This document shows positions 1-16,306 of a stretch of DNA of 64,000 nucleotides, in pieces. The notes under the pieces are model-generated. The model saw nothing but the letters and a program-made list of their open reading frames with translations. It did no database searches and was not told where the DNA came from. Both the position numbers and the translations under genes were made by a program. The stretch comes from Fomitopsis serialis (Eukaryota; Basidiomycota; Agaricomycetes; Polyporales; Fomitopsidaceae). The stretch spans positions 42,432 through 106,431 of the forward strand of contig NW_025955106.1 in the NCBI RefSeq assembly GCF_022376445.1, written 5' to 3'. Positions within the stretch are counted from its first letter, which is position 1, and every line of letters begins with the position of its first letter.

Positions 1-44
1 GTACAGCAGTCCGCGCACACAACCAAAAAGCCCCCATGATGCCC

Positions 45-407
45 TCAGTTGGGCAGCTCATACTCCGGGCTACCGAAACACGTGTCCTGCACGACGTCCG
101 CGTCCGCGATCTCGCGGCCAAGCTCTACGAGTTCTGCCGTCTCGCGATACAGAGGATCTGCGCGCGTGTCCGTGTTGATTCCGGTGCGATCGCCCTTTCT
201 GTGCGCGATTCTGACGGCCATGCCCACCTCCGTGCTGTCTGTGACCGCCCAGACGACGGTGTTTCCAACTCTGAACCAGGGCCCCTTCTGCTGACCAGCC
301 TCGGCGAATCCCATAGAACCGATCCCGGGCCCGCCCTCCAGGTGCTCCGAACATCGGGTGTTGCCTTGCTGGCCGTTCGTTGTTATCTGTCCTGGACACT
401 TTTTCAA
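45..407 (-). CDS. possible 3' exon of an unrecognised gene
   Basis: An open frame of 120 codons on the minus strand ends in a stop near the left edge. The translation has protein-like composition, with stretches such as GPWFRVGNTVVWAV and ELGREIADADVVQDT, and differs from the arginine-rich or serine-rich shadows in other frames. That suggests a terminal exon of a gene entering from higher coordinates. I do not recognise a family. I could not find a convincing upstream exon between 408 and 2331, so the gene may be truncated or decayed. A plus-strand ORF of similar length (36-413) overlaps it and looks less protein-like. Confidence is low. Confidence 0.3.
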   Translation of the reverse strand: MKKCPGQITTNGQQGNTRCSEHLEGGPGIGSMGFAEAGQQKGPWFRVGNTVVWAVTDSTEVGMAVRIAHRKGDRTGINTDTRADPLYRETAELVELGREIADADVVQDTCFGSPEYELPN

Positions 408-2331
408 GTGTAACTCACCGGTCTGAGATGATCCCCGTCCGCTTCAGAGGCTGTCTCGCCATGACGCTGCTCATTGCTCCCAGTGCATCGCGTGCGATTT
501 ATTTCGTGATATTCTGGCATATGCGGTCATGCCGATGCTATAAGCCATGTCAATACAGGTGCTTGGAGTGGGGGTCTCTTTCGTATGCAGGCCTTTATGG
601 CGATCGGGCAGTCCCGCGGATCTCGCGTCTCAATTGCGCACGGTGCCGATACTCGACTTAGGTATGTTTGAGCGTATACCTGAGATCATGAGGCTGACCG
701 TGTGATTGTCCTCTAGTCTTGGTGTTTTCGGCGTGGCAAGTCCTGGTACGCACTGTTATCGTACTAGTTCTCTGCGTAAAAGAATACATTAGAGCGAGTG
801 GCGCCTTTTATCACCTCAACCAGCTGTGCTCACAGTATGCGTACGCTTGTTCATTTGACACATATGAAGCACTCTCAAGCTGCCGGATACACATGCTTGT
901 GACTTCGATGTACGTGGTGTTCCTGACACATTTGTTTCGGTCGTTGCACTAAGCAGGGAATTCAGTCAGATATGCGCCGTGCTCGGTCGCTCAGTTGGAA
1001 TGAAGTTTCAATCGGCTGACCAGAGAGGCGGAGTCTGTTGAGTTTGTGCAACGGGACTCGAGCGAGTTCGTTTGAGTACGAGTACGCAGATCTGTCGATC
1101 CAGGGCAACAATTGAACACCGTCTCTGAACTGTAAGCATGACTCGCGAGTTCACCCCGGCTGGCATTCGTCAATCATGTACTAACGTGATATGGGATGTC
1201 TCTGCTGAAGCTCTGGAGGCGCGATTTCGTTATTGCGACCAAGAACAAGATGATCTGTATTCTATTAGCTTCGCAGTCTTCGCCGCACCCATCACCGGCA
1301 ACCCCGATCATGTATGTGGTACTTTCAGCTTAATCACTGCCAAGGACGAAACACGATTCGAAACAGAATCAGGTATGCCCTTGTGTGCTATCGATGTCCA
1401 GGGGAGCCTGAGCTTGTGACGTCAAAACAATTTTCCTAGGAACAATAGGTTACAATGATATAGCGAATGGAGGTATCAGCCACGTCCCGCGGACACGACA
1501 AAAAGAATGCAGTATTGTGTTCCGCGAGAACAGCGCCCACTGGCACATCCTACCGGTGAGCTGTTGCCCAGGCTTTGGTTTCTTTGGTTCAGGCTAAGGT
1601 TTGGAGCGTTCAGGCATTGTGGTTCAGGCTCTTTCCCTTCAACGCTGCGAGACCAGAGCACCACACCCAAGGGCTACCACGTATGCATTCTACATCAAAC
1701 AACAGTTGACGAGCAATATGACGTGTGATTGAAAGTGCATTTCGCGTATATCCTGTAAGTACCATTCACGGCATCAATGCCCGTGGTGAACGTCCACGCA
1801 TATAACATGTAGTTGCGCGACGCCGTACAAGCGCGGGAAACTACTATTGTCCTTGGGTTAGTGTGTATGCTACGATACTTACCGCAGCCGACGTGAGTCT
1901 TTCGTAGCATCTTTCTGTCCAACGTGAACAATAAAGTCACGCCCTTAGGACGGGCTCAAGATGATAGCGCGCCTTGGCTGGTCCTCGCCGGTGGTGCCGA
2001 GCGACTGGTATGTGTTATACCGATGCATACTATGTCACAGCACAAAACACCCTGTTGGGCAATTGTATCGTGATACACGCTACCTACAGGTGCTGCACAC
2101 TGATGGTTGTGAGATCGCGTTAAGGATGCTACATCAAGACCGCTCGACACAATTAGCGAGTCACTTGTAAGCGGCTATAGCATCAATACGAGGCAGTGTA
2201 ACGACTGACATTACCAACAACTACCTTAACCCTCTGACTTTTCCGCGATTATCCTTACGCCACAACACTCAAGAGGCATAGATATATAAACGAGTGAGTG
2301 TCTCGATGTCTACACTACTGACTTCTGAATC
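408..2331. other. gene-poor stretch upstream of the first Crinkler-like gene
   Basis: No ORF here has recognisable domain content. The longest plus-strand frame (1138-1419, 93 codons) shows no family signature. A TATA-like string, atatataaa, lies at about 2280-2290, some 45 bp before the ATG at 2332, and is the likely core promoter of the next gene. Confidence 0.5.
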
Positions 2332-5300
2332 ATGGCGACGTCTGCTAGTCTCTCTCAAACGCTCAAAGCTCAGAAGTCTGAATCTCCCAAAGCTCCTCGC
2401 ACGCTGTCACATATGAACGATGGTCTGCCTGTCTTGACGCGGAAGATTCTGGACGACATCAACAGCGACATGGCACAAGAATTGAAATACTTCATTGAGA
2501 AGGTTAATGGAGATAATCTCGGATGGGAACCAGACATGGAGGACGTTGCCCGTGTCTTACGCAGCGCTGCCGCAGTGCTCATATCCATAGGGCATGCCGA
2601 CACTGTGCAAGATATATGGTGCAAGCCAATTGCTACTCGGGGCTATAAGGACGAATTTGATTTTCTCGGCAAGCAAGGTCATTGGTATGATATGTGCCGT
2701 ACGAGTTGTGTGGGCTGCGCCTCAACTGGGAACTGGGAGGAACTGATGTCACATTGTGCGTGCTTTAATTTGTCGTGGCGATACTGGACAATGGTACTCA
2801 AGCCTGTATTTGCATGGCTTTCCATCTTAGCACTTCTACGAAAGACTCTAGGTGCGTCACCCAAAAGAGGCCATTGGTAATCTGACTTATCACTCTTTCA
2901 GTGCATATGGACGATAATTTGCCGGAATCAGAGACACTTGCCGTAATGAGTGCATGGCATCAGCCTTATCACGGACAAGCCCACGAGGCTCTCTGGGATC
3001 ATATGCATACTCACTGCGAGCCGAATGCGTTCACTCGCTACGCTCATCATATAGTGATAGTGCAGTCAAATGGGACGGGCAAATCTAGGATGATAGATGA
3101 GCTCGCAAAGAAGCACTTCGTAATCCCGATAAACACTAGGAGTACCATGAGCGCAGAACATGGACGGCACGGTAGATGTTGATGACTGCTTCATGCCATG
3201 TCTCGCTACTGACTATGGTCGCATTTTATGATACAGGTCTTGCGCATCCTCCGCCAGACGGAGCAGTCCTCACGTGGCTGACTGCACAGTCCGAATCAAG
3301 AGAGAACACACATCAGAGATGCTGTGCTTTCATACAGGCCTTGTTCGAACACATACTCTACATCATTGACAATGACCTCGCTGCTCAGAGTGCTCAAGGC
3401 ATTCCCAATCTTTCTTCTGCATTCCGTGATAAGATGCAAGAAGGAATGCAATACGGCAATTATGGAGGATACCATGTGAGATTCTTCCAAGATGTTATCT
3501 CGCGTGCTACGGACAATCTCAAAGTGAGCATCTGAGTTCTGTACGATATCCACCTGTGCCTGTTGATAACCGTTACGGTGACTAGACCAACCACTATGAA
3601 TATTCTAGTCCCAGTAGTAATGCTCTGGTGATTGCTCATCGGACAACAAGTCAATCTCATGGCGAGAGCTCTGAAGACTGGCTGTTCCCGCCGGAAATTC
3701 CGTGCCACAAACTCATGGAACGATTGAGCAGTATTGCCACATCTCGTGGTGCCGGCTCCCGAACTCGCCATGCAGTTGATGCACATTATCCTTTACTGAC
3801 CTTGGCATTTGACGAGGCACATACCCTCACTAACATAGAAGTGAGCAATCAAGATATCCGAGTCAAACCAGTTGAGACCAGAAAATGGTCCGTGTTCAGC
3901 GAGATACGTTCAGTCTTGCGCAGTCTTAAGAGACAGCCCGTCTTTGCTGTGTTCATGGCAACCACTGGTGATGTTGGAAAGCTCGCAACCTCTCGGATGC
4001 AAGACCCATCAAGTCGCATCCTCCAGGGAGCGCTGTCTCAAATCCCTTCGTTCAGTGACCTTGGACTTGATCAGCTTGCACGGAAGATCTCTCTTGAAGA
4101 TGGCTTCGATCTCTCCGAGGTCACCAGCAACGAGTATATGTCTCATCTCGGCCGCCCATTGTGAGCAAATGTCTGTGTACTAGTGTAACGGATATTCCCG
4201 TTACGGTATATCTTATCTTGTACGCTTGTTCATGTTTGTTCGAGGGCTCGTATGGCGCGCCAGCGCACCTACGAGACCTCAGTCCTTTACCATCCTCATC
4301 GCCCCATGTATGCTACGTGTAGACAGTCCCTCTGAATAGAGACTGGGTACAGCGCATACCGGGCCCGAGGATTAAGGGACGCCACACTTTTTTGCGCTCC
4401 AGAACAGCTTCTGTTCTGGGGACTATCTACTCTAGGCAACAACCTGGAAACTTCGAATTTCTATGCTTTACATCAAAATCTAGTCGACTTCGCAACCACT
4501 CAAGAAGATGGCTGGATCGACAACCCACTCTCCCAAGCACTCGCGTAGTACTCGGAAGGCCCACCGCGCGAAGGTCGATGCGAAGGTGGATGGAATTCTT
4601 GGCAGTTTTGCGAAGTTCTTGAAGAGTATCCCGGTCGAGACACGAGCCACCCCCGATAGGCGGTTCCGGACACTCGATGACTCGATGAAGCATCTAGAGG
4701 ATGCTATTACATCGCTCAGATGCTCCGTGGAGCAGGACAACGAGTCCAGACGTCACCGTCGCACGACCTGCCAGACTGAGCTCTCCGACCCCGAGAACTC
4801 GTCCGGAGCACTCGCGGAGCAGGCACCGTCCGACCGCGAGGTCGAACGCACAGCACACGCAGAACTGTTCGAGCCCAAGGTCGAACCCATTCAGAGCTGC
4901 CAGGAGAACCCGACTCCGCCTGTTCCAATCGAGCCACAGGAGCTGGAAAGCTCTCCGACGAGTGGTGCGCGCAAAGAGATCGACAGCGCTGCCGCTGTTG
5001 AGCCCGCGTCTGAGCCCAAGGGGCCGCGTCCTGAGCAGATCGAGCCCGACATCGAGACTGCTCAGAGATGTCCGGAGACTCCGTCTCCGATTGCTCCCAG
5101 TGAGCTGACCAAACTCGGTACCACCATCAAGAGTGGTGCACGCACCCGGTTCGACGACGCCGCCGTCGCCGAGACCGAGCCCAAGCCCCAGTTGTCCGAC
5201 AAGGCGACTCGGCCCTACGCCCGGGAAGGCATAGGGACGCGACCTTACGTCGCATCCCGGGATGTAGGCGAGCTTCTGCTCGTAGATCCACATGTCGCGT

Positions 5301-8300
5301 GCTCAGAAATGAGCCGCGACTCAAAATATATGATCGCGCCGGACGACGTGCCCGACGCGGCAAGCATCGAGCTCGACACTCAACGCGTCGAGCGTCACGC
5401 GCCCGCGCCGAGAGCGAGCACTCTCAGCGTTAGCGCTGGAAGTACTCCTCACCATGCTAACCGCCACTTCGACCTTCACTCTGGCCGCCACCGCCCGCGT
5501 GCAACCGCGTTCCAACCCGGTTCGCACTTCCCAACGGAAGTGCGAGCCGCGGACTGTCCTTGGACAGCTGAACCCTTCGCGGTTCAGCTGAAGGATCGAC
5601 CGGTCAGTACCGACCGCCACCTCGCGGTCGGCAACCCCTCCGACGACCTGGCACCTCACGGTACAAGACCGCCAGGGCCTTCCTCTCCGATCCTTTCCCT
5701 CCGCCCTCGCGTCTCGCATCTCGACTCGGGAGACTCTCCTCTCGAGTCTCATGACTCTGGCGACACCCATCGCGGCTCTGGCGACACACAACCCAGTCGC
5801 ACGATCCAGGATTCGCACGACCTGCGTGCAAGCCCAGCACCAGGCAACCAGGCTGCGCGAAACGCGGGAGACACGGAGCGAGGAGAATGCGAGGAAATCA
5901 GGAAAAGGAAGGAGGGGGAAGGGTGCGGGGCGAGCATGAAAGACGAGCAGAGAGGCTCAATAAACGCAGGTACGCCCTTGGTGAACGTATCCCACTCGCC
6001 ACCGCCTCCTTCTCCAATGCCCACACCGGCACACGTATCGACGACTACAGAGGTCGTCGTGCGTGTCGCAGGCCATGAAGACGGCACGTATGCGTTGCGG
6101 GACGACCTGAGGGTTGTACCCTCCGCTTCTCGAGGCGGTATGCCTGTAACACGGGATGACCTCGCGGTCGTACCGTCTATTCCGCTAGGCGGCACGGCGG
6201 ACGCGCAGCATTGCACGTCCGAAGTGCCCCATCGAGCATTCACCAGCCGTCGCGTAGCGAACTCGAAGCTCGATGGTATGTCCATACTGGACGCACCCAG
6301 TCCTTCCCCGGTTCTCTCGCTAGTACCCGAGCCAGTGTGCATGTCGACGAACGAGAAGGCCGTCGTGCGCACTACTGGTCACGGAAACGGCAGGTACACG
6401 TTGCGGGACAACCTCGCGGTCGTTCCGTCCACTTCGCAAGACGACACGGCGGATGCACGGTGCTGCGTGCCCGCCTTGTCCCGACCTGTCATGACCGACC
6501 CACACGAAGGATCGATCAGTGAAGGTACGCCCTCGACGGAAGTACCTAGATCAATACGTCATGCCATGGCGCCCACGCCGGCTCACGTATCGACAACCAC
6601 AGAGGTCGTTGTGCGTGCCGCAGGCCATGAAGACGGCACTTTCGTGTTGCGGGACGACCTGATGGTCGTACCCTTCGTTTCACAAGGCAGCACACTGGCA
6701 CTACGGGACGACCTCACGGCCGTACCGTCTATGCTACAAGGTGACACGGCGGACACGCCGCAATACATGTCCGACGTGCCCCGTACAGCCTCCACCCGCC
6801 ATCGGGTAGCAGACTCAGACCTCGAAGATACGTCCATGCTGGACGTATCCAACTCTCCGCATATGCTATCGTCAGTACCCTCGCGAACGGGCGTAGCAAC
6901 GAACAACAACCTCGTCGTGCGCACTGTAGGCCACGACAATGGCATGTATGACCTAAGGGTCATACCCGCCACTTCTCGAGGCAGTACACCTGCGATACGG
7001 GACGACCTCGCGGTCGTACCATCCAACCTGCAAGGCGACACGGCGGACGCGCAGCGCTGCACGTCCGACGTTTCCCAGACAGCTTTCATTAGCTGTCGAG
7101 TAGCGGGTTCGAAACTTGAAGGTACGCCCATACTGGACGTACCCAATGCCCCACCAGTTATATTGCCATCGCCTGAGCCAGCGTGCGTATCAACGAACAC
7201 GGAGATTGTCGTGCGCACCGCTGGCCACGAACACAATACAATCATGCTCCAGAACGACCTTCAGGTCGTACCCGAGCGTTCGAGTTCCTCGCTACCGTCT
7301 CCACTCCCATTACGGTACGACCTCGCGGTCGTACTCTTCAAATGGCAAAGCGAGACGACGACCGTGCGCCATCCCACAATCTACGTACCCTGCTCGGTCA
7401 CGAACGACGGTCGCGACGTAGAGGGTACGTCGAACTCATGGCTCAATATACACGCTACCGGCAAGCCTGAGCACTGGTACAGAGGGTCGAGAAGTACAAG
7501 TACGCCCTCGGCGGACGTACTTACCTCGACGCCTGCTGCAACCGTACTCGTGTCCGTGCCCACGCTAGCGAGCGTCACGGTGAACGAAGAACCTGTCGCG
7601 CGCAACACCCACGGCTCGTCGGGCCACCGTCTCCTCATCTCCGCCTTCATGATCACAAGTGATCATGGAGAGGACAGCACGATCACATCTCGGGACGATC
7701 TTCAGGTCGTACCGGGACCCGTCATTCGCCAAGGCGAAGCCGGGTACGCACAGCGCTCTGAGCAGCCCGAGACCGCCGTCGGGTCTGCTCAATGCCACCT
7801 GGAGGCACTGCCATCCCGAGGTGCCCCGGCCCAAGCGACGAAGCTAGGCATCACCCCGAAGGATGATGCACGCGCCGAGCTCGAAGACACGTCCGTCATC
7901 GAGCTCGCATCCGAGCCGAACGAGTGGTGCGTCGAGTCGACGCATCTCCGCGCTCGGGAGGGTATAGGCACACAGTACTACAACAGTACTGTGTACAGCG
8001 GGAACGAGCCCGCGTGCGTAGATACACTCGTCGCGAGCTCAGAAATGAGCCGCGACACAAGAAATATATTATTTGTGTCGATCGACGTGCGCGCCATGAC
8101 GAGCAGCCTGCTCGACGCGACGCGCGACGTGCTCAACGCTACAGGCGTTGGGTGTCACGAGCCCGTGGAGAGCGACCCGAGCGCTAGCGCCTACCGCACT
8201 ACGCTCGACCGCCACCACCGAACCCTCGTTCTCGACCCCTTCCACTCTCTGGGCAGCCACATCGAGCGCCCGTCTGGCGAACCAGACGCGCGTGCCGTCC

Positions 8301-11300
8301 CAACGCGAGTGCGAACTCGCGTTCGCGACTGCCTGGCTGAACTGCTGCCAGTTCAGTCAGAGGCGACCAACGAACTGGTACCTCGCGGTACCAGATCACC
8401 ACCCTATTCTTCCCCGGCTCCTCGTCTCTTTCCCCTCGTCTCGCGCCTTGATTTTGGCGACCACTACCGCGACTCTGGTGACACGCAACCCAGCCGCGCG
8501 ACTCAGGACTTGAACACCGCGCGTTCAAGCCCAGCGCCGAGCCGTAAGACCGAGAGGACCACGAGGAACGCGAATCGTGGAGGCTGCGAGGAGATCCCGA
8601 AGGAACGAGAAGGGTGCGAGGAAGGCACGAAGGGAGAGAGGGAGGAAGGGTGCGGGGCGAGTAGAGAAAGCGAGCAAGAAGGCTCACAAATCGCAGGTAC
8701 GCCCTCACTGGACGTACCCGACTCGCCTCCGCCTGTGCCAGTACCCCCGCCAGCGACAGCAGCCCTAGGGAACGACCCGCGGGTCGTACCCTTGTCAGTG
8801 CACAACAGCACGACGGACGCGCAGCACGGCACGTCCGACGTGCCACACTCGCCGCCACCTATGACCGCGCCAACAGGCGTATTGACGAACGTGAAGGTCG
8901 TCGTACGCTCTGTTGGCCACGCACATCGCACGCACAGGCCCTGGTACAACCTACAGGTTGTACCGGGCAGTACGCACGGCGACACGGTGGACACGCAGAA
9001 CTGCACGTCCGACGTGCCCTGCGTAACAACGGACGTGCCCAGAGCTGCAGCGACAAACGGAACGTTTGTCGTGCGCATGGGAGGCCACGAAGATGGCGTT
9101 GCTGTCCCCAGGTACGACTGCAAAGTCGTACCGTCCGCTCCGCAAAAAGGTACGACTGTGCTAGGGAACGACCTCCAGGTCGTCCACGGGCTCCCCATCT
9201 GGCAAGACGACACGGCGGACATGCAGTCTCGCACGTCCGACGTGCCCCACCCATCCATCACCGACCATCGGATAGCGAGTATGCCGAGCTCAAGGCTTGA
9301 CGTACACGCTACCGACCAGCACGAAGGATCGAGAAATGAAGGTACGCCCCTGATGGACGTACCCATCTCGACATCCTCCTTGCCCGGGATCAGGCCCGCT
9401 CTGCAAGAGAGCATACCTACGCTAGGGGACGACCTCGCGGTCATAACCTCCAATTCGCAAGGCGGCACGATGGACATGCAGCGATGCATGCCCAACGTGC
9501 CCAATTCAACCTTGACTGCACGCGATGTGGCGTGTACGTCTAGCCCGCCGCTTGACGTACACGGCGTCAGTGATCACCATCCTCCGATCATTACTGACCT
9601 CCCGTTGGCTAGTCGCACGGCGCAGGACAGCCTGTACGTCCCCGCGGAAGTACGGGTCCCTGGCTGCTTCAGCGCAGTTGAACCACCAGTGGTACAACTG
9701 GCCGAGCTGCGGGATGACCCCGACGACCTCTTCCGTGAATTCCTCGACCTTCCGTCTGGCAGCGACAGGTTACGCCCGGCCCCGCATCAAGACGGTCCGC
9801 ACTACATCACGGAAGTGCGAACATCCGGTGCAGTTGAACCCGCAGTAGTTCAACTGACAGGGTCGTGGAACGGCATCGCTTCCGTCCCTGATGGTACCCA
9901 CTCACGCGCGGCTGCCCGTCCAGAAGACTTGCACTCCCAACAGGAAGTGCAAGCCCCCGGTCCCGTCAAGACAGCTGAACCATTCACGGTTCAGCTGGGA
10001 AGCCTGCGATACGACCTCGACCTCGACCGGTTGAGCGACCACCACTCTCGTTGTGAACCAAGCGCCCCGGCGACGGCGCAGCTCGACGATTGCGTAGCCC
10101 TAACGGACGCGCGAGCTCAAGACCGTGACCGAGTTGCTGCACTAAGTGTAGTGCAGCAGCCGGCGCCTACGGACCCCGACCGACCAGAATGGTTTTCCGA
10201 CCCTAAACTCGGCGAGAAATTTACAGTTCTCGCCGAGGATTCGCTCCCAAGGACCCACACTTTAACCCCTATCGACCTCCCCGCGGCCCTCGACACCCAT
10301 GGCGACTACGACAGGCGCCACGAGTCGGCGACCTCGCATGCACCCCGGAGATCGCGCGAGGAATGGAAGGATGGAGGAAATGTGGACGAGGATGCGGAAC
10401 CAGGAGAATCAGACGAGGAAGGTCAGGCAGAAGGAGAGGAGGAAGGGTGCGGTGTAGGCGAAGAAGACGAGCCTGCGAGCTCGAAAAGCAAAGGTACGTC
10501 CTTATTGGACGTACCCTCGTTATTCGTGCCACCATTCCCCACCCCGCAATCACCACCCGTGATGACCACGACAACCACATTGGTTGTCGTGGCAGTCACT
10601 GTATACAACAGTGGTACAGTCGGCCCGGGGGATGACCTGCGAGTCGCACCCGGCACGACGATGCATCGCGGTACAATCGGCGAGTTTGCCTGCTCGACCG
10701 ATGTATCCGGTCGGTCTGTAGCCCACGCACAGACGTTGGGCCTCTCCGTCGACGTCCATGATGAGGAGGTCGACGGTGATTTGAGAATCACGTCGGTCGT
10801 GTCCAGCATGGTCGCGCATCGGGCTCATGGGGCATATTAGAGATCGAGCTTCATGCTTGAGGTACATCCCTATCACCATCGTCCGCGATGTGTCTGGAGA
10901 ACTTCACAGTTCTTCGACACAGTGACAGGTCACCATTTTCTCGTTGCCGACAGCTGTCGCCATCACTATTGCAGGCTGCATAACTCCATCGAGTTATGTA
11001 TGACGAGAGTGGACGGCCATGCTGCTCACTGACACGAAGTAGTTTGTCGTTGTCTACAGTATGGCACCACCCTTGTATTGCCAATCACTACCACCGTTGT
11101 GTTGTCGTGTGTACAATTCCTTCTTTCTTTTCATTTGTCTGGTTATCTCTGGGACCCGTGGTCGTGTCCAGTGGGGGAGGGTGTAACGGATATTCCCGTT
11201 ACGGTATATCTTATCTTGTACGCTTGTTCATGTTTGTTCGAGGGCTCGTATGGCGCGCCAGCGCACCTACGAGACCTCAGTCCTTTACCATCCTCATCGC

Positions 11301-12805
11301 CCCATGTATGCTACGTGTAGACAGTCCCTCTGAATAGAGACTGGGTACAGCGCATACCGGGCCCGAGGATTAAGGGACGCCACAACTAGGAAGCTGCACA
11401 GTCAACTAACGAAGTGTGATTGTACTTCATTAGGTTCGGCAGCATGTGGGACACTCGTGATCCTGGCATACAGGCGGGAATCATAGACTTCGCAAGGACC
11501 AAGCTCATGCGCTCTCAGCTCATCAATTCAGCAGATACAATTCAACACTGGCATCCGAGCCAGCTATTTGCTTGCCTTTCTCAGCGCCTGGCATTGGAAT
11601 TTCAATGTACAACATATGCTGCCCAGCAGTATGAGCGAGAGCAAGTACAGGGACATATGCGGATCTGCCTACAGATGGATGAAAGTTTTGAATCAATGCA
11701 CTCAATCACTGGGTCAGAGCCAATACTGGCTGAAGCAGCATACAGTGTCATGGCCAACCCATCATTCAATGCTCCAGAAGCTTTGAAGCTCATACTCGAT
11801 GGATTCTCTGTCCACAAAGGCGATCGGGGAGAACTATTAACACTTCTTCTTCTGACACTGGCAAGGGATGCAACAGTAGTAGAGGCAGCCACACACCTCA
11901 TAACTCCCAGTGATGCTCGCAGCCGCATACTTGCGATCCCTGACTTCTTCGGAAACCTACTGAAATGCACTGCGAAACCCACCAAAATCGTGAGACAGTT
12001 CATAGACGAGTTCAAGGGATGCTTCATGCACTTCAACCACTTCATCAAGGTCCATGAATGGGCCCTGTTACGTCAAGACTACTTGTTAGGCTATATGGCC
12101 CGCGGAGCAGCTGTGCTATGTGCAAACAATCAGCCGGGAGTGGACATCGTCTTGATGGGCATGCATGGCACAAGAGCGCACACATCCAATCTGATTCCCA
12201 TTTTGGTGCAAACGAAAAACGATGCGACATATACTGCACAGCCTGACGATGCCCTTTTCGATGCAATGGATCCTTACGCATTGAAAATATGGGATCATGT
12301 CACCGCGAAGACGACCAAGCCAGTCATTCGCATTGTTTTTGCACTCGCCGTTCAACGGGAAGATGCCCGGCTGACAGTGGTCAAGAAGACAAAAACATCA
12401 GTTATCAATGGCGTTGAGGCGAAATTTGAGGCTTACGACTTCTGGGTTGCAGGTCTAGCATCCGGAGTCCTCACTCCAATACCACCCCAAGCAGAGGATT
12501 TATGGGATGCACTGCTGCAGGCATCGTATGGCTGGAACGAGCCGTACAAGGGTCTTAATGCCCGTCCAAAGGCCTTGCGAAGGTCGATGAACGCCGGCGG
12601 TGGAACTCACCCTGACCACTGGGATTCCTGGGTGTTACCCCGGTCAGCAAGTCATGACATCGCCACTAAAACAAAAGGAAAGGGCCAAACCGACTCGGAG
12701 GATGTATTCGGACTCAAGAACCCGAATCCCTCCGTTCCACCTCCAGCAAGGAGCTCGGCTAGTACAGAACAGGCGTCGCGGTCACGGAACACTGGTACCA
12801 GGTGA
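2332..12805 (+). CDS. Crinkler-like P-loop NTPase / nuclease-fold protein, gene 1 (intron holds an LTR element)
   Basis: My splicing joins 2332-2851, 2902-3171, 3237-3523, 3586-4160 and 11434-12805. It gives one 1007-residue frame with no internal stop, and all five exons agree in phase. The order is an N-terminal helical header (about 1-170), a Walker A string SNGTGKSR (about residues 229-236), a Walker B-like LAFDEAH (about 433-439), and a C-terminal region with VDIVLM (Asp about 788) followed by LVQTKN (Gln about 810, Lys about 812). The D...QxK pair resembles the PD-(D/E)XK restriction-endonuclease core known in Crinkler-type effectors. Family knowledge: such P-loop/REase proteins are multi-copy in Agaricomycetes and are thought to act in conflict or the nucleus; substrates are unknown. 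The last intron is 7,273 bp because an LTR element inserted in it; without the element and one target duplication it would be 67 bp. A tandem paralogue follows at 13275. The nuclease assignment is inference. Confidence 0.8.
4179..4183. repeat. left target-site duplication ACTAG
   Basis: ACTAG directly precedes the TG of the 5' LTR and is repeated right after the CA of the 3' LTR. Removing the element and one copy restores a 67 bp intron with donor GTGAGC, branch point CTAAC and acceptor TTAG. Confidence 0.95.
4184..4386 (+). repeat. 5' long terminal repeat (203 bp)
   Basis: It starts TGTAACGG and ends GCCACA. The first 21 bp contain a 7 bp inverted repeat, GTAACGG/CCGTTAC. An AT-rich stretch, TATATCTTATC, about 25 bp in is a possible TATA region. 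It reads identically to 11182-11384. Confidence 0.95.
4399..4419 (+). other. hairpin at the primer-binding-site position
   Basis: CCAGAACAG-ctt-CTGTTCTGG is a perfect 9 bp stem with a 3 nt loop, starting 13 nt after the 5' LTR. No tRNA-complementary TGG site is visible between the LTR and the ORF start, so this could serve self-priming or packaging; that is inference. Confidence 0.6.
4508..10840 (+). CDS. 2,110-aa repetitive ORF of the LTR element, no known domain
   Basis: A single uninterrupted frame fills nearly the whole interior. The first ~60 residues are basic (Lys/Arg/His-rich) and are followed by a short helical stretch; the rest is Pro/Ser/Thr/Asp-rich and looks disordered. I see no zinc knuckle, protease DTG/DSG active site, YxDD or integrase motif. 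Two large diverged modules recur about 2.73 kb apart: AREGIGT with SEMSRD near 5215-5330 and again near 7950-8065, each followed by an acidic GCGAS block, with a third partial copy ending near 10470. Inside them a shorter unit of about 300 bp repeats, with the motif DDLxVVP and GDTAD...TSDVP. The codons coincide with dozens of short inverted repeats, so the amino-acid pattern may be a by-product of RNA or DNA structure. Long antisense ORFs (up to 333 codons) are shadows of the palindromic content. Confidence 0.75.
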   Translation: MAGSTTHSPKHSRSTRKAHRAKVDAKVDGILGSFAKFLKSIPVETRATPDRRFRTLDDSMKHLEDAITSLRCSVEQDNESRRHRRTTCQTELSDPENSSGALAEQAPSDREVERTAHAELFEPKVEPIQSCQENPTPPVPIEPQELESSPTSGARKEIDSAAAVEPASEPKGPRPEQIEPDIETAQRCPETPSPIAPSELTKLGTTIKSGARTRFDDAAVAETEPKPQLSDKATRPYAREGIGTRPYVASRDVGELLLVDPHVACSEMSRDSKYMIAPDDVPDAASIELDTQRVERHAPAPRASTLSVSAGSTPHHANRHFDLHSGRHRPRATAFQPGSHFPTEVRAADCPWTAEPFAVQLKDRPVSTDRHLAVGNPSDDLAPHGTRPPGPSSPILSLRPRVSHLDSGDSPLESHDSGDTHRGSGDTQPSRTIQDSHDLRASPAPGNQAARNAGDTERGECEEIRKRKEGEGCGASMKDEQRGSINAGTPLVNVSHSPPPPSPMPTPAHVSTTTEVVVRVAGHEDGTYALRDDLRVVPSASRGGMPVTRDDLAVVPSIPLGGTADAQHCTSEVPHRAFTSRRVANSKLDGMSILDAPSPSPVLSLVPEPVCMSTNEKAVVRTTGHGNGRYTLRDNLAVVPSTSQDDTADARCCVPALSRPVMTDPHEGSISEGTPSTEVPRSIRHAMAPTPAHVSTTTEVVVRAAGHEDGTFVLRDDLMVVPFVSQGSTLALRDDLTAVPSMLQGDTADTPQYMSDVPRTASTRHRVADSDLEDTSMLDVSNSPHMLSSVPSRTGVATNNNLVVRTVGHDNGMYDLRVIPATSRGSTPAIRDDLAVVPSNLQGDTADAQRCTSDVSQTAFISCRVAGSKLEGTPILDVPNAPPVILPSPEPACVSTNTEIVVRTAGHEHNTIMLQNDLQVVPERSSSSLPSPLPLRYDLAVVLFKWQSETTTVRHPTIYVPCSVTNDGRDVEGTSNSWLNIHATGKPEHWYRGSRSTSTPSADVLTSTPAATVLVSVPTLASVTVNEEPVARNTHGSSGHRLLISAFMITSDHGEDSTITSRDDLQVVPGPVIRQGEAGYAQRSEQPETAVGSAQCHLEALPSRGAPAQATKLGITPKDDARAELEDTSVIELASEPNEWCVESTHLRAREGIGTQYYNSTVYSGNEPACVDTLVASSEMSRDTRNILFVSIDVRAMTSSLLDATRDVLNATGVGCHEPVESDPSASAYRTTLDRHHRTLVLDPFHSLGSHIERPSGEPDARAVPTRVRTRVRDCLAELLPVQSEATNELVPRGTRSPPYSSPAPRLFPLVSRLDFGDHYRDSGDTQPSRATQDLNTARSSPAPSRKTERTTRNANRGGCEEIPKEREGCEEGTKGEREEGCGASRESEQEGSQIAGTPSLDVPDSPPPVPVPPPATAALGNDPRVVPLSVHNSTTDAQHGTSDVPHSPPPMTAPTGVLTNVKVVVRSVGHAHRTHRPWYNLQVVPGSTHGDTVDTQNCTSDVPCVTTDVPRAAATNGTFVVRMGGHEDGVAVPRYDCKVVPSAPQKGTTVLGNDLQVVHGLPIWQDDTADMQSRTSDVPHPSITDHRIASMPSSRLDVHATDQHEGSRNEGTPLMDVPISTSSLPGIRPALQESIPTLGDDLAVITSNSQGGTMDMQRCMPNVPNSTLTARDVACTSSPPLDVHGVSDHHPPIITDLPLASRTAQDSLYVPAEVRVPGCFSAVEPPVVQLAELRDDPDDLFREFLDLPSGSDRLRPAPHQDGPHYITEVRTSGAVEPAVVQLTGSWNGIASVPDGTHSRAAARPEDLHSQQEVQAPGPVKTAEPFTVQLGSLRYDLDLDRLSDHHSRCEPSAPATAQLDDCVALTDARAQDRDRVAALSVVQQPAPTDPDRPEWFSDPKLGEKFTVLAEDSLPRTHTLTPIDLPAALDTHGDYDRRHESATSHAPRRSREEWKDGGNVDEDAEPGESDEEGQAEGEEEGCGVGEEDEPASSKSKGTSLLDVPSLFVPPFPTPQSPPVMTTTTTLVVVAVTVYNSGTVGPGDDLRVAPGTTMHRGTIGEFACSTDVSGRSVAHAQTLGLSVDVHDEEVDGDLRITSVVSSMVAHRAHGAY
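10841..11181 (+). other. 3' untranslated interior and polypurine tract of the LTR element
   Basis: This stretch holds the perfect palindrome CGACAGCTGTCG (10949-10960), the hairpin CATAACTC/GAGTTATG (10979-10998) and, at 11171-11181, the purine run GTGGGGGAGGG touching the 3' LTR. The last is the expected plus-strand primer of reverse transcription. Confidence 0.75.
11182..11384 (+). repeat. 3' long terminal repeat (203 bp)
   Basis: It has the same length and, as far as I can read, the same sequence as 4184-4386, which implies insertion too recent for the LTRs to have diverged. The target duplication ACTAG follows at 11385-11389. Confidence 0.95.
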
Positions 12806-13274: not shown

Positions 13275-16200
13275 ATGCCTACCTCTCGAGCGGATGCCCT
13301 CGAATCTTCATTCTTTCCCGCGCCATTACCAGCTGAATATGATGTCTTTGAGCTGCAGCTCAATCGGCTTTTCAGTGGAACGGAACTTCGGGTCACCTAT
13401 ATGCGTCACGATCTCCCTCACACTCATGAGCAGGTTCTACCAGGTGCGAAGTGGGTTACACGGCTCCTGCTTCGTTATGTGCCTTCTATCAGAGATACAG
13501 TTGTACCGGAATGGACTGAATGCGACCCCGGGTCGCCTCGTAACGTTGCCAATCCTGCTGCACGATTTTCGGATGAACAACTCGGGGAATGGTTCCGTCT
13601 TATTTTCCGGGCTTGCGAGAGTGGCAAATGGGACATATTTATAGATCGAGGTGTGTTCTCTACCGTTGTGCTCAACACGTTGGTGACGCTGCTCGTAGCA
13701 CCATTATTGCGACGCCACCGAAGTACGTCTCAGAAGTGTAAACCCTACTGTCATTTCTGATACATGGTAGCGGTACACGAGTACGAGAAGCTGGGTATGT
13801 CGCTATTCTCGTGAATAATGTATGCGTCAAACTCACTATCCAACAGCCGTGCAAGAGGCTTGGGAGCAGCCATACAGGGGCCAAATCCATATGGACGTCA
13901 GGCGGCACCTACAGTACAATTGGTGGCCAGATCGCCCGACGGTCCATGACTTATCAATCGTCCAATCATCTAGGACCGGGAAGTCTCGAATGTTGGACGA
14001 GTTAGCAAAACAATACTTGGTCATTCCTATCAGTTTGGGCTCAGGTGTCGGTGCTCGAGATTACGGGACACGTACTATTTGTTCCTCCTTCTATAGTGTT
14101 CATAAGCTTACCTTCAACTCAGCTCCATACCCGCCTCCTGATCTCCATATCCTGAACTGGTTGATTGGATTCCATGCCGCAGATGCTGTCGTCGATGGAT
14201 GCAACGCCTTCGTTCAAGCACTGTTCGAACATACCCTGACTGTCCTTCAGCGTGACTTCAATAAGGAAGCGGACAGCGGCGTTGTCCATCTTTGTTTTGC
14301 TTTTCGCAGCAAAATGCAGGAAGGGATGAGGTGGGGTGCTCATGGGCCATATCGGGAGGCATTCTTCGGCGATGTCTTGAGCTTAGCGCGCAAGCTGTTT
14401 CTTGTGAGTGATCAAATTTGAGTGCTCTGATTTGTGATAAGTGCGGCGTATTGACGCAATCTTTAGGGTCACTGTCATCAAAGGCGCGCGAAGACAGTGC
14501 ATCACATATCTCCTGTGAAGATTGCTTGCGACCGCTTGATGCGTTACTTAAACCAGGTCACCGATGCTTCACACTCTGACAAAGCTCGGGCCGCGTCGCC
14601 GTCTCACGTCCTAGACGAGTATCATCCTACGTTGATAATTGCCTTTGATAATGCGGAGCACCTAACAGATGGCTCGACGGCGCTGAACCGTATCGATCTC
14701 GCTGAAACACCGAAGTGCAACATTGCAGTCGAGTTGAAACGAGTCTTCACCCAGTTGGCTTCGCGCTGCCCCGTGTTCGGGCTCTTCTTGTCAAGCTCGC
14801 CGTCGTTGTTGTCTGAGACAGTGCGGACAATGTCTTCGGTATATGTGGATGAAGAGACGGGCATACAGGTCGGGCCTCTGCCTCCGTGGATGGAACTCCA
14901 GTTTGATCTGGCAGCGACCAAGATCAGCATAGCCGACGGATTCTCCTTGACAGAAGTAGCCTCCAACGAATACATGTGCCATTTAGGTCGAATCGGGTGC
15001 GCTTTGAACTACACTTCGTGTCTGGTAGAACTGAACACCTTGTAGCTTCGGGAGTCTCTGGGACTCAGGCAACCAGCAATGGAGGGAGAATATCATTCCG
15101 CTCGCGGCGCAGCAACTCTTGCATGCACACGACCTCGGCCATAGCAACATTACCTCTGCGCAATTGCTAGCATGCGTCTCTCAGCGGCTCGCGCTCGAGA
15201 TCGACACCCGTGTCGGGGCCGAGCAGCTCGCTGCAATGAACCAAGTCCAGAATCACATGCGTCTGTGCTTCTTCCAGAGGGTGGATCGAGACGGAGCGGG
15301 CACGCAGGCGATATCGCAGTCCGGGTCTGAACCACTGTTCGCCGAGGCAGCGTACTACGCTGAACGACAGTGCGCAACTAATCTGCCCGCTGCTTTGAAG
15401 ACTATTCTCGTGGATACTCCGATCGCCGCAGCGGACGGTGACCGGCTGCTGGTTTGTCTGCTGCTGGTGCTGGCGCGCGACGCCACTGTCGGCGAGCCTG
15501 ACGCTCACGGCCATCCTGCACCTGGACCTGACGGACGCAGTGGGCGAATTATGGACGCAGTCAAATTCTTCCACGTCATGTTCCCGTTCATGGATGCTTC
15601 CCGCTCAGACCGCGCCATTTACTACGAGCCACCTGAAGATCAAAAGGTCCTGCTCACAGACTTCGAGCGAGAACTGATTGACTACCACATGTACTTCAAC
15701 CACTTCGTTGTTGTCCCTCGTGGCGTTCTACAGCTGAAATATCTGCATGCGCTGTTAGCCCGTGGTGCCGCGGTTCGTTGCGAGCAGCTCGATTGCCCGA
15801 TCGACGCTGTCCTGCCGATGGTCGAAGGTGGACGCGCGGAAAAGGGCAAGGCCAACTTGATCTTGTTGAAAGCGGTCACTTCGAGCGACGGACGGCCAGC
15901 AGAAGAGGTGTTCCGTGCTATGGATCCCTATGCCCTCGATATCTGGGCTCCCGACTACGCGCCAAACAAGCCGCTTATCCGCATCGTGTTTGCCTTTGAC
16001 GTGCCTCGGGAAGACAGTTGTTTCCGTATCGCGAAGAAGGAGAATGTCGATGACCAGCAGAGGATGTTCGTCTCGTATGACATCTGGATCGCGGGCCTGT
16101 CTCCAGCTCTTCTCGGCTCCGTGAACCCCGATACGGCACAGGAGATGCGAGAGATATTGCTCCTGTGTAGAGCGCAGAGGACCCGCCTTTTCCCGGACCC

Positions 16201-16306
16201 GCATAGCCGCGATCGGGTGCCAGTCATGTTGCAGTCATTCTCCTTGCGTGCCGGTGGGGGTGCACGGTATCAGCATTGGCAGGGTTGGACGGAGGACATG
16301 CTGTAG
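13275..16306 (+). CDS. Crinkler-like P-loop NTPase / nuclease-fold protein, gene 2
   Basis: Splicing 13275-13722, 13847-14071, 14123-14403, 14467-14996 and 15046-16306 gives one 914-residue frame with matching phases, so the gene is intact. The architecture matches gene 1: a header with YVPSIRDTVVPEW and an ACESGKWD motif, a P-loop string SSRTGKSRMLDELAK, then LIIAFDNAEHLTD where gene 1 has LAFDEAH, and the C-terminal repeat of LLACVSQRLALE and the nuclease-like region. Two active-site positions look degraded: the Walker B acidic pair (DEAH to DNAE) and the nuclease motif (QTK in gene 1, LLK here after IDAVLP). Gene 2 may therefore be a catalytically inactive paralogue, or use other residues. 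The remnant at 23132-24168 is much closer to this copy than to gene 1. Confidence 0.82.

Follow-up and report, generated by a model that had tools for sequence, protein, structure and literature searches.

The element and its hairpin array

The window analysed here, a stretch of 64,000 nucleotides from Fomitopsis serialis, contains a long terminal repeat (LTR) retroelement whose internal region carries an array of short perfect hairpins. The 5′ LTR (4184..4386, + strand; 203 bp with TG...CA ends) pairs without a difference with the 3′ LTR (11182..11384, +), the two are bordered by the target-site duplication ACTAG as read by eye (4179..4183 and 11385..11389), and a purine tract resembling a polypurine tract adjoins the 3′ LTR (11160..11181, +). 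Paired direct LTRs with TG...CA ends, a 5-bp duplication and a purine tract identify the element as an LTR retrotransposon. The 5′ leader (4387..4507, +), in which a TTTTTGCGCTCC block is conserved and a 9-bp hairpin lies at 4399-4419, is followed by an open reading frame (ORF; 4508..10840, +) of 2110 codons from the first ATG, or 2118 amino acids from stop to stop starting at 4484, and most of the array lies inside this frame. A further 7-bp hairpin, GTAACGG...CCGTTAC, lies within the first 20 bases of the 5′ LTR. When the leader was read for a tRNA-type primer site, the only priming mode considered, no TGG... start was seen right after the 5′ LTR, and Pfam returned zero families above the cut-off for the ORF of the window.

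An earlier note on this DNA, made from its sequence alone, described dozens of perfect hairpins in the element, and a count over 4387-11181 gave 38 perfect stems with 7 bp or more and a loop of 3-15 nt. The ORF contained 22 stems of at least 8 bp (loop of 3-12 nt), compared with means of 1.52 in dinucleotide shuffles (maximum 4), 1.98 in synonymous-codon shuffles (maximum 7) and 1.02 in codon-order shuffles (maximum 5; n = 40 for each), and eight stems of at least 10 bp, compared with 0.05, 0.23 and 0.10, respectively. The shuffle check that the earlier note had proposed thus placed hairpin density far above both dinucleotide and codon-preserving controls. Along the window, 24 stems fell in 4179-11389 (3.33/kb), 13 in 11390-64000 (0.25/kb) and none in 1-4178. 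In two ORFs compared with 12 synonymous shuffles each, the folding energy of 120-nt windows of either strand lay 14.2-22.0 standard deviations below that of the shuffles. Among 213 unique hairpins whose loops measured 3-19 nt, loops of 4 nt were the commonest (77), loops of 3-5 nt made up 126, and spacers of 21-30 nt or more yielded 12-29 stems per range compared with 281 for spacers of 3-12 nt. Hairpin centres occupied all three codon phases, and hairpins were found in the leader and the 3′ end as well as in the frame. The stems belonged to many unrelated sequence families, 35 of them without a common 6-mer, and a single protein-binding motif is therefore disfavoured. The only two Rfam matches (E 0.7 and 0.96) were both far under the gathering scores.

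The genome (66 Mb, 806 contigs) was searched for further copies, giving at least 40 matches for the LTR (the best 40 of 82 candidates were scored) and at least 109 for residues 1-450 of the ORF, many of them in long open frames. Sixteen complete copies were aligned (the window copy, L031, L032 and L035-L047), the C257 copy (L033, L034) and the partial loci L048-L050 being left out. All 16 carried 17-33 stems of at least 8 bp, compared with 0.7-1.7 in ten shuffles of each, confirming that the hairpin array is real. Outside the alignment, such stems numbered 9 in L033, 13 in L034, 0 in L048, 11 in L049 and 20 in L050, and three loci that were only counted, L054, L055 and L056, had 22, 17 and 30. 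All 16 complete copies also ended in the same 22-base purine tract, terminating in GGGGGAGGG, and showed 5-bp duplications by eye. Because the LTR pairs were mismatch-free in 15 of the 16 copies, with one mismatch in the L031 pair, all 16 were recently inserted. Pairwise identity between copies nevertheless ranged from 66 to 100%, so that up to one third of the bases differed, and several lineages of the element have therefore been active in parallel. None of 147 RVT_1 matches lay between the listed paired LTRs, copia-type RVT_2 not having been searched genome-wide, and no pol-bearing partner with the same LTR was found among the best 40 of the 82 LTR candidates. The element belongs to a family of LTR retroelements that is pol-less as far as tested and currently or recently mobile.

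Listed from 5′ to 3′ on the + strand, the hairpins include two of 10 bp at 5522-5545 and 5565-5590, followed by a repeat block (6039..7334) with hairpins of the DDLxVVP type, such as 6946-6965 and 7315-7334, and an 8-bp hairpin at 7648..7667. The most conserved stretch looked at (7960..8400) has hairpins at 7970, 8053, 8271, 8302, 8337 and 8375; mean column identity over 12 copies was 92% across its 441 bases and 69% in the 3′ stretch 9920-10600. Further downstream lie 9-bp hairpins at 8943-8964, 9051-9071 and 9111-9132, hairpins at 9928-9953 and 9972-9997, a 10-bp hairpin at 10135-10158, a 9-bp hairpin of the GGTACGTCC family at 10493..10515 and, 3′ of the open frame, an 8-bp hairpin at 10979..10998. 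The stems of 11-12 bp described in the earlier note were recovered at 10208-10237 (11 bp) and 10566..10592 (12 bp), as were those that it quoted at 5565, 6946, 8337, 8943, 9111, 9831 and 9972. Two of its items proved weaker, 7002 being the 6-bp core of a 9-bp stem that contains a single G.A mismatch, and 8772 a stem of 6 bp with a 4-nt loop that reaches 7 bp only with a 2-nt loop.

Conservation of stems and inversion of loops

The rate, covariation and inversion statistics were calculated on 11 representatives, the near-identical copies L031, L037, L038, L040 and L042 being omitted. In a comparison of clade against clade, which is free of the ascertainment bias that can arise when the stem-defining copy shares a lineage with the measured pair, stems were defined in one clade and divergence was measured in the other. 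Stems defined in the five copies of clade b diverged in the five copies of clade a by 0.0669, compared with 0.1426 elsewhere, a ratio of 0.47 (block bootstrap 95% 0.36-0.62), and the reverse test gave 0.092 compared with 0.1656 in clade b, a ratio of 0.56 (0.42-0.72). Stem labels taken from L043 alone gave ratios of 0.42 (0.29-0.56) and 0.66 (0.46-0.85). Loops were not slowed in the same two clade tests, with ratios of 0.97 (0.57-1.53) and 1.28 (1.04-1.54). The stems are thus conserved, changing about half as fast as the background. At fourfold sites, 25 of 320 had changed in stems and 160 of 1040 elsewhere when three pairs were summed, a weaker result in that the stem labels share ancestry with the measured pairs.

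The earlier note also proposed that paired strings vary together among repeats, pointing to selection on pairing. Changes on both sides of hairpin pairs numbered 288, compared with 62 under independence (4.6-fold), and 209 of them were Watson-Crick, whereas control pairs outside hairpins had 2600 compared with 1844 expected (1.4-fold), 1223 of them Watson-Crick. Among 623 hairpin column pairs in 11 copies, 37 had two or more Watson-Crick states, compared with 24.6 ± 3.0 in shuffles that ignore relatedness, none of 500 reaching the observed number. Taken by itself, the DDLxVVP series quoted in the earlier note showed no significant covariation across 16 paralogous copies (three measures; P = 0.06, 0.13 and 0.20). 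Covariation thus exceeds the shuffles overall yet is modest.

Between copies, the same stems were found to bear loops that are reverse complements of each other. Among 105 hairpin loci, 51 had more than one loop, and exact inversions occurred in five of these 51, compared with a mean of 0.39 (maximum 3) in 5000 null draws that keep the forward distances between loops. Inversion to within one base occurred in nine of the 22 loci whose loops differ at three or more places, compared with a mean of 1.65 (maximum 7) in 5000 draws. Inverted forms made up 11 of 27, 7 of 26 and 12 of 76 hairpin loops of 4, 5 and 6 nt, respectively, compared with 43 of 731, 19 of 1552 and 16 of 2422 matched non-hairpin windows, related pairs being recounted in these tallies, and a displaced control gave 0 inverted windows over five runs compared with 16. 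The hairpin at 7648..7667, for example, has the loop CAAG in the window and its exact inversion CTTG in the C77 and C128 copies, and at 9928-9953 the loops of several copies are one base from the inverted form (AACA or CACA compared with TGTC).

Of the 19 clusters of difference between the window copy and the near-identical L031, 16 were single changes, one was a segment spanning over 600 columns and one a 6-bp indel. The remaining one, the only 3-base cluster, is an exact flip of the loop of the 10566-10592 hairpin from CAT in the window to ATG in L031. This flip is recent. Genome-wide, the 10566-10592 hairpin was found at 22 places with the loops, in element sense, AATGC (8), GCATT (3), ACATT (2), AATGT (2), ACATC (2), ACACT (2) and GAGGC (3); two loop types are thus present in both orientations while the palindromic form is kept. 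Patterns of four flipped hairpins matched at 22, 19, 47 and 14 places, compared with 0, 1, 1 and 0 for backward controls, numbers that illustrate rather than test inversion, the patterns having been picked where flips had already been seen.

Proposed selection and template switching at the hairpins

In template switching, a polymerase briefly copies off the nascent or complementary strand; as reported by Monttinen and Loytynoja (2022; PMC8794818), it leaves loop inversion with the stem kept and compensatory change as footprints, and makes and maintains perfect stems. The loop inversions in the present family are exact in-place replacements by the reverse complement, the same footprint. Because loops are inverted between copies, part of the apparent compensation may be mutational, arising by template switching and not through selection only. 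The selection on pairing put forward in the earlier note is partly supported, through the conserved stems and some compensatory change, and part of the compensation may have this other source. Unbiased copying from arm to arm should not slow neutral change, and by this reasoning the half-rate stems suggest that selection acts in addition to template switching.

Considering these results, we propose the following scenario, which we regard as somewhat better than an even prospect: selection keeps the hairpins in replication intermediates of the element, and template switching restores and inverts them. Within an intermediate that is single-stranded, be it genomic RNA, antisense RNA or cDNA, the hairpins would act in cis as structure and be retained by selection for mobilisation in trans. 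The template would be switched at hairpins while they are copied, most simply in reverse transcription, with host replication as the alternative, and switching would mend mismatched stems using the other arm and occasionally invert the loop. The protein may tolerate such rewriting because it is weakly constrained, omega being 0.57-0.79 in 10 pairs of intact frames. In L036, L037 and L034, at three genome places, the long frame ends at the same stop, with 122 of 123 bases alike, and the duplications of L036 and L037 are not the same; the shared stop at different places indicates that a lineage with a broken frame kept inserting, and an intact frame is therefore not needed in cis. Since frame-broken copies still inserted, the selected feature is probably cis-acting.

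Several results weigh against this scenario. A cruder null, in which loops are drawn from other loci and 45.5 loci instead of 22 become testable, gave nine near-inversions compared with a mean of 5.24 (P = 0.06), and events in which an arm was replaced showed no direction bias (14 compared with 10 loci). Fourfold sites were not slower in the stems of the close pairs L035-L032 (9/111 compared with 47/570) and WIN-L035 (4/173 compared with 19/724). In the A1 stretch (892 columns, 12 copies), covariation was marginal, with five pairs changed on both sides compared with 3.2 in shuffles, 81 of 500 reaching that number; its covariation score was matched by 5 of 500 shuffles. One-sided mismatches were common, with 316 distinct states compared with 38 of 890 column pairs that had two or more Watson-Crick states. 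For the one-sided decay of stems without compensation, which the earlier note had named as evidence against its proposal, the outcome is thus mixed, two-sided changes having reached 4.6-fold of expectation in hairpins and 1.4-fold in the control.

The mismatches themselves were asymmetric between strands. On the sense strand, A.C mismatches numbered 672 and G.T mismatches 344, a ratio of 1.95 (family bootstrap 1.22-3.19; control 1.08). All four changes producing A.C were faster than any of the four producing G.T. Sign counts of A.C over G.T were weaker (36 compared with 20 loci, and 18 compared with eight stem families), and a tally of hairpins with one mismatch gave 63 A.C and 16 G.T among 185 unique hairpins, related hairpins being counted repeatedly. 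Tolerance of G.U wobble was thus not seen on the sense strand; the antisense strand, on which A.C corresponds to G.U, would fit. The asymmetry fits pairing in minus-strand cDNA or antisense RNA; it would equally fit if G.T hairpins were repaired faster during plus-strand DNA synthesis. A more specific form of the favoured scenario, which we offer only tentatively, is that the array functions in minus-strand cDNA or antisense RNA, constitutes the main conserved content of the element, is needed in cis for mobilisation driven by a partner and maintains itself through changes of template by the polymerase at each hairpin, which mend stems and invert loops. The frame would then be constantly rewritten at the loops, with its reading frame retained.

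The array might instead be purely a mutational by-product, in which template switching within a tolerant, disordered coding sequence makes and tidies hairpins whose pairing is unselected. The loop inversions, one of them recent, the weak protein constraint, apparent gains of arms such as that in the stem at 8053-8080 between the window copy and L032, and the reported capacity of template switching to create and maintain perfect stems (PMC8794818) would all be expected. Stems changing at about half the background rate would not, and three loci bearing reverse transcriptase sequences (three of the 147 RVT_1 matches, 3483 bases each) had two, zero and zero stems, a weak control given the constraint on pol. 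We therefore consider an origin by mutation alone rather unlikely.

Selection on hairpins of the sense strand, in genomic RNA or mRNA, as dispersed packaging signals, for translation control or as a shield against silencing, appears less likely still. It agrees with the folding excess on the sense strand, the prevalence of 4-nt loops and the span of the hairpins over leader, frame and 3′ end. However, G.T was half as frequent as A.C on the sense strand, so the sense-RNA packaging raised in the earlier note gains no support from wobble pairs; the loops, where proteins usually make contact, show no slowing; and the many stem families contain no single motif. Palindromes in double-stranded DNA, as cruciforms or sites for dimeric host proteins, would explain perfect inverted repeats with short spacers and a palindromic form that persists through loop flips, but they predict no asymmetry between A.C and G.T, the clustering of loops at 3-5 nt is as for folded single strands and the stem sequences are largely unrelated, making this reading very improbable. 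That amino-acid repeats or codon usage could by themselves have produced the array, although part of it lies within amplified units, has next to no probability, since synonymous shuffles erase the excess (22 compared with 1.98) and rule out such an artefact, and since hairpins use all three codon phases and occur outside the frame too.

Dicer substrates are longer than 13-bp stems. The feeding of Dicer that the earlier note had suggested is therefore unlikely, the longest perfect stem in the copies examined being 13 bp.

Known systems and other features of the family

The non-autonomous LTR retroelements include the large retrotransposon derivatives. The present family resembles non-autonomous elements in its intact LTRs, 5-bp duplications, purine tract, many young copies and lack of a detected pol. 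Unlike large retrotransposon derivatives, which have a long non-coding internal region, it has a frame of 2118 amino acids in the window, and long frames in many copies that are broken in others; where plain derivatives are non-coding, many copies have an open frame of 1.6-2.5 thousand codons that bears the hairpin array. Fungal mitochondria carry double-hairpin and palindromic mobile elements, in which short palindromes have multiplied in genes and are individually mobile. The array described here is, in contrast, nuclear and carried within one LTR element.

A close likeness is to the cases in PMC8794818, which share loop inversion with the stem kept, compensatory change in perfect stems and inverted loops of mostly 4 nt. 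Those cases concern rRNA and other RNA genes and host DNA replication, no word beginning with 'retro' occurring in that article, whereas the present array occupies a retroelement's coding region and its loops are free to change. Quasi-palindrome mutations in yeast (PMC3820800) similarly extend the identity of arms in imperfect inverted repeats and are attributed to template switches, though at single reporter sites, with neither an array nor a retroelement. The miRNA-like structures reported from genes and transposable elements of maize (PMC10760457) share the local secondary structure within transposable elements, but they are linked to small RNAs, whereas the stems of the present element reach at most 13 bp. 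The view of the earlier note that no LTR element with such an array has been described agreed with a search of open-licence PubMed Central articles, mostly represented by titles and the starts of abstracts, in which none was found.

The retention of stems while loops change and sometimes turn suggests that an unusual structure is being maintained for the copying cycle of the element itself. If the favoured scenario is correct, template switching would have left a natural trace again and again in the dozens of hairpins of this family, the same loop occurring either way round within one genome. How much selection and template switching each contribute to perfect stems, a question still debated for RNA evolution, could then be measured in one system, and the family would represent an LTR element whose cis-acting structure, spread along a long open frame, outlasts its surroundings in conservation.

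In addition to changes at the hairpins, the number of amplified units (6019-7164 in the window, and also in L036/L037 and L039/L040) varies between near-identical copies in 60-base steps and longer segments. The open frame thus also lengthens and shortens through the gain and loss of units. In the C257 copy, which has fewer stems (L033, L034), the LTRs are 13.9 kb apart, and it probably carries a nested insertion. L055 (G000:C41:83500-90700) is a more divergent relative with a frame of 2524 amino acids; several of its 17 hairpins with stems of at least 8 bp have loops 9-12 nt long and stem sequences unlike those of the other copies.

At its insertion site, the window copy apparently lies within an intron of a gene in the same orientation, the coding pieces 3586-4164 and 11420-12805 on either side joining by eye as one protein across GT...AG signals. 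A paralogue of the split gene is located at 14467-16306, and no Pfam family was found for the coding pieces of either gene. A protein search with the ORF, in which 7999 candidates were scored, returned two relatives, P0001 and P0002, both from Fomitopsis serialis and with zero Pfam families over the cut-off, while a search with its C-terminal part returned only the query itself among 4299 candidates. Since a hit in either search required 5-residue words in common and a limited length, these results do not prove that relatives outside the species are absent. P0001 matches two genome places at 99-100% identity, both of them places of the element family, in line with Fomitopsis serialis or a very close strain as the host. 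P0001 and P0002 are annotated as 'uncharacterized proteins', that is, retroelement frames entered as host genes.

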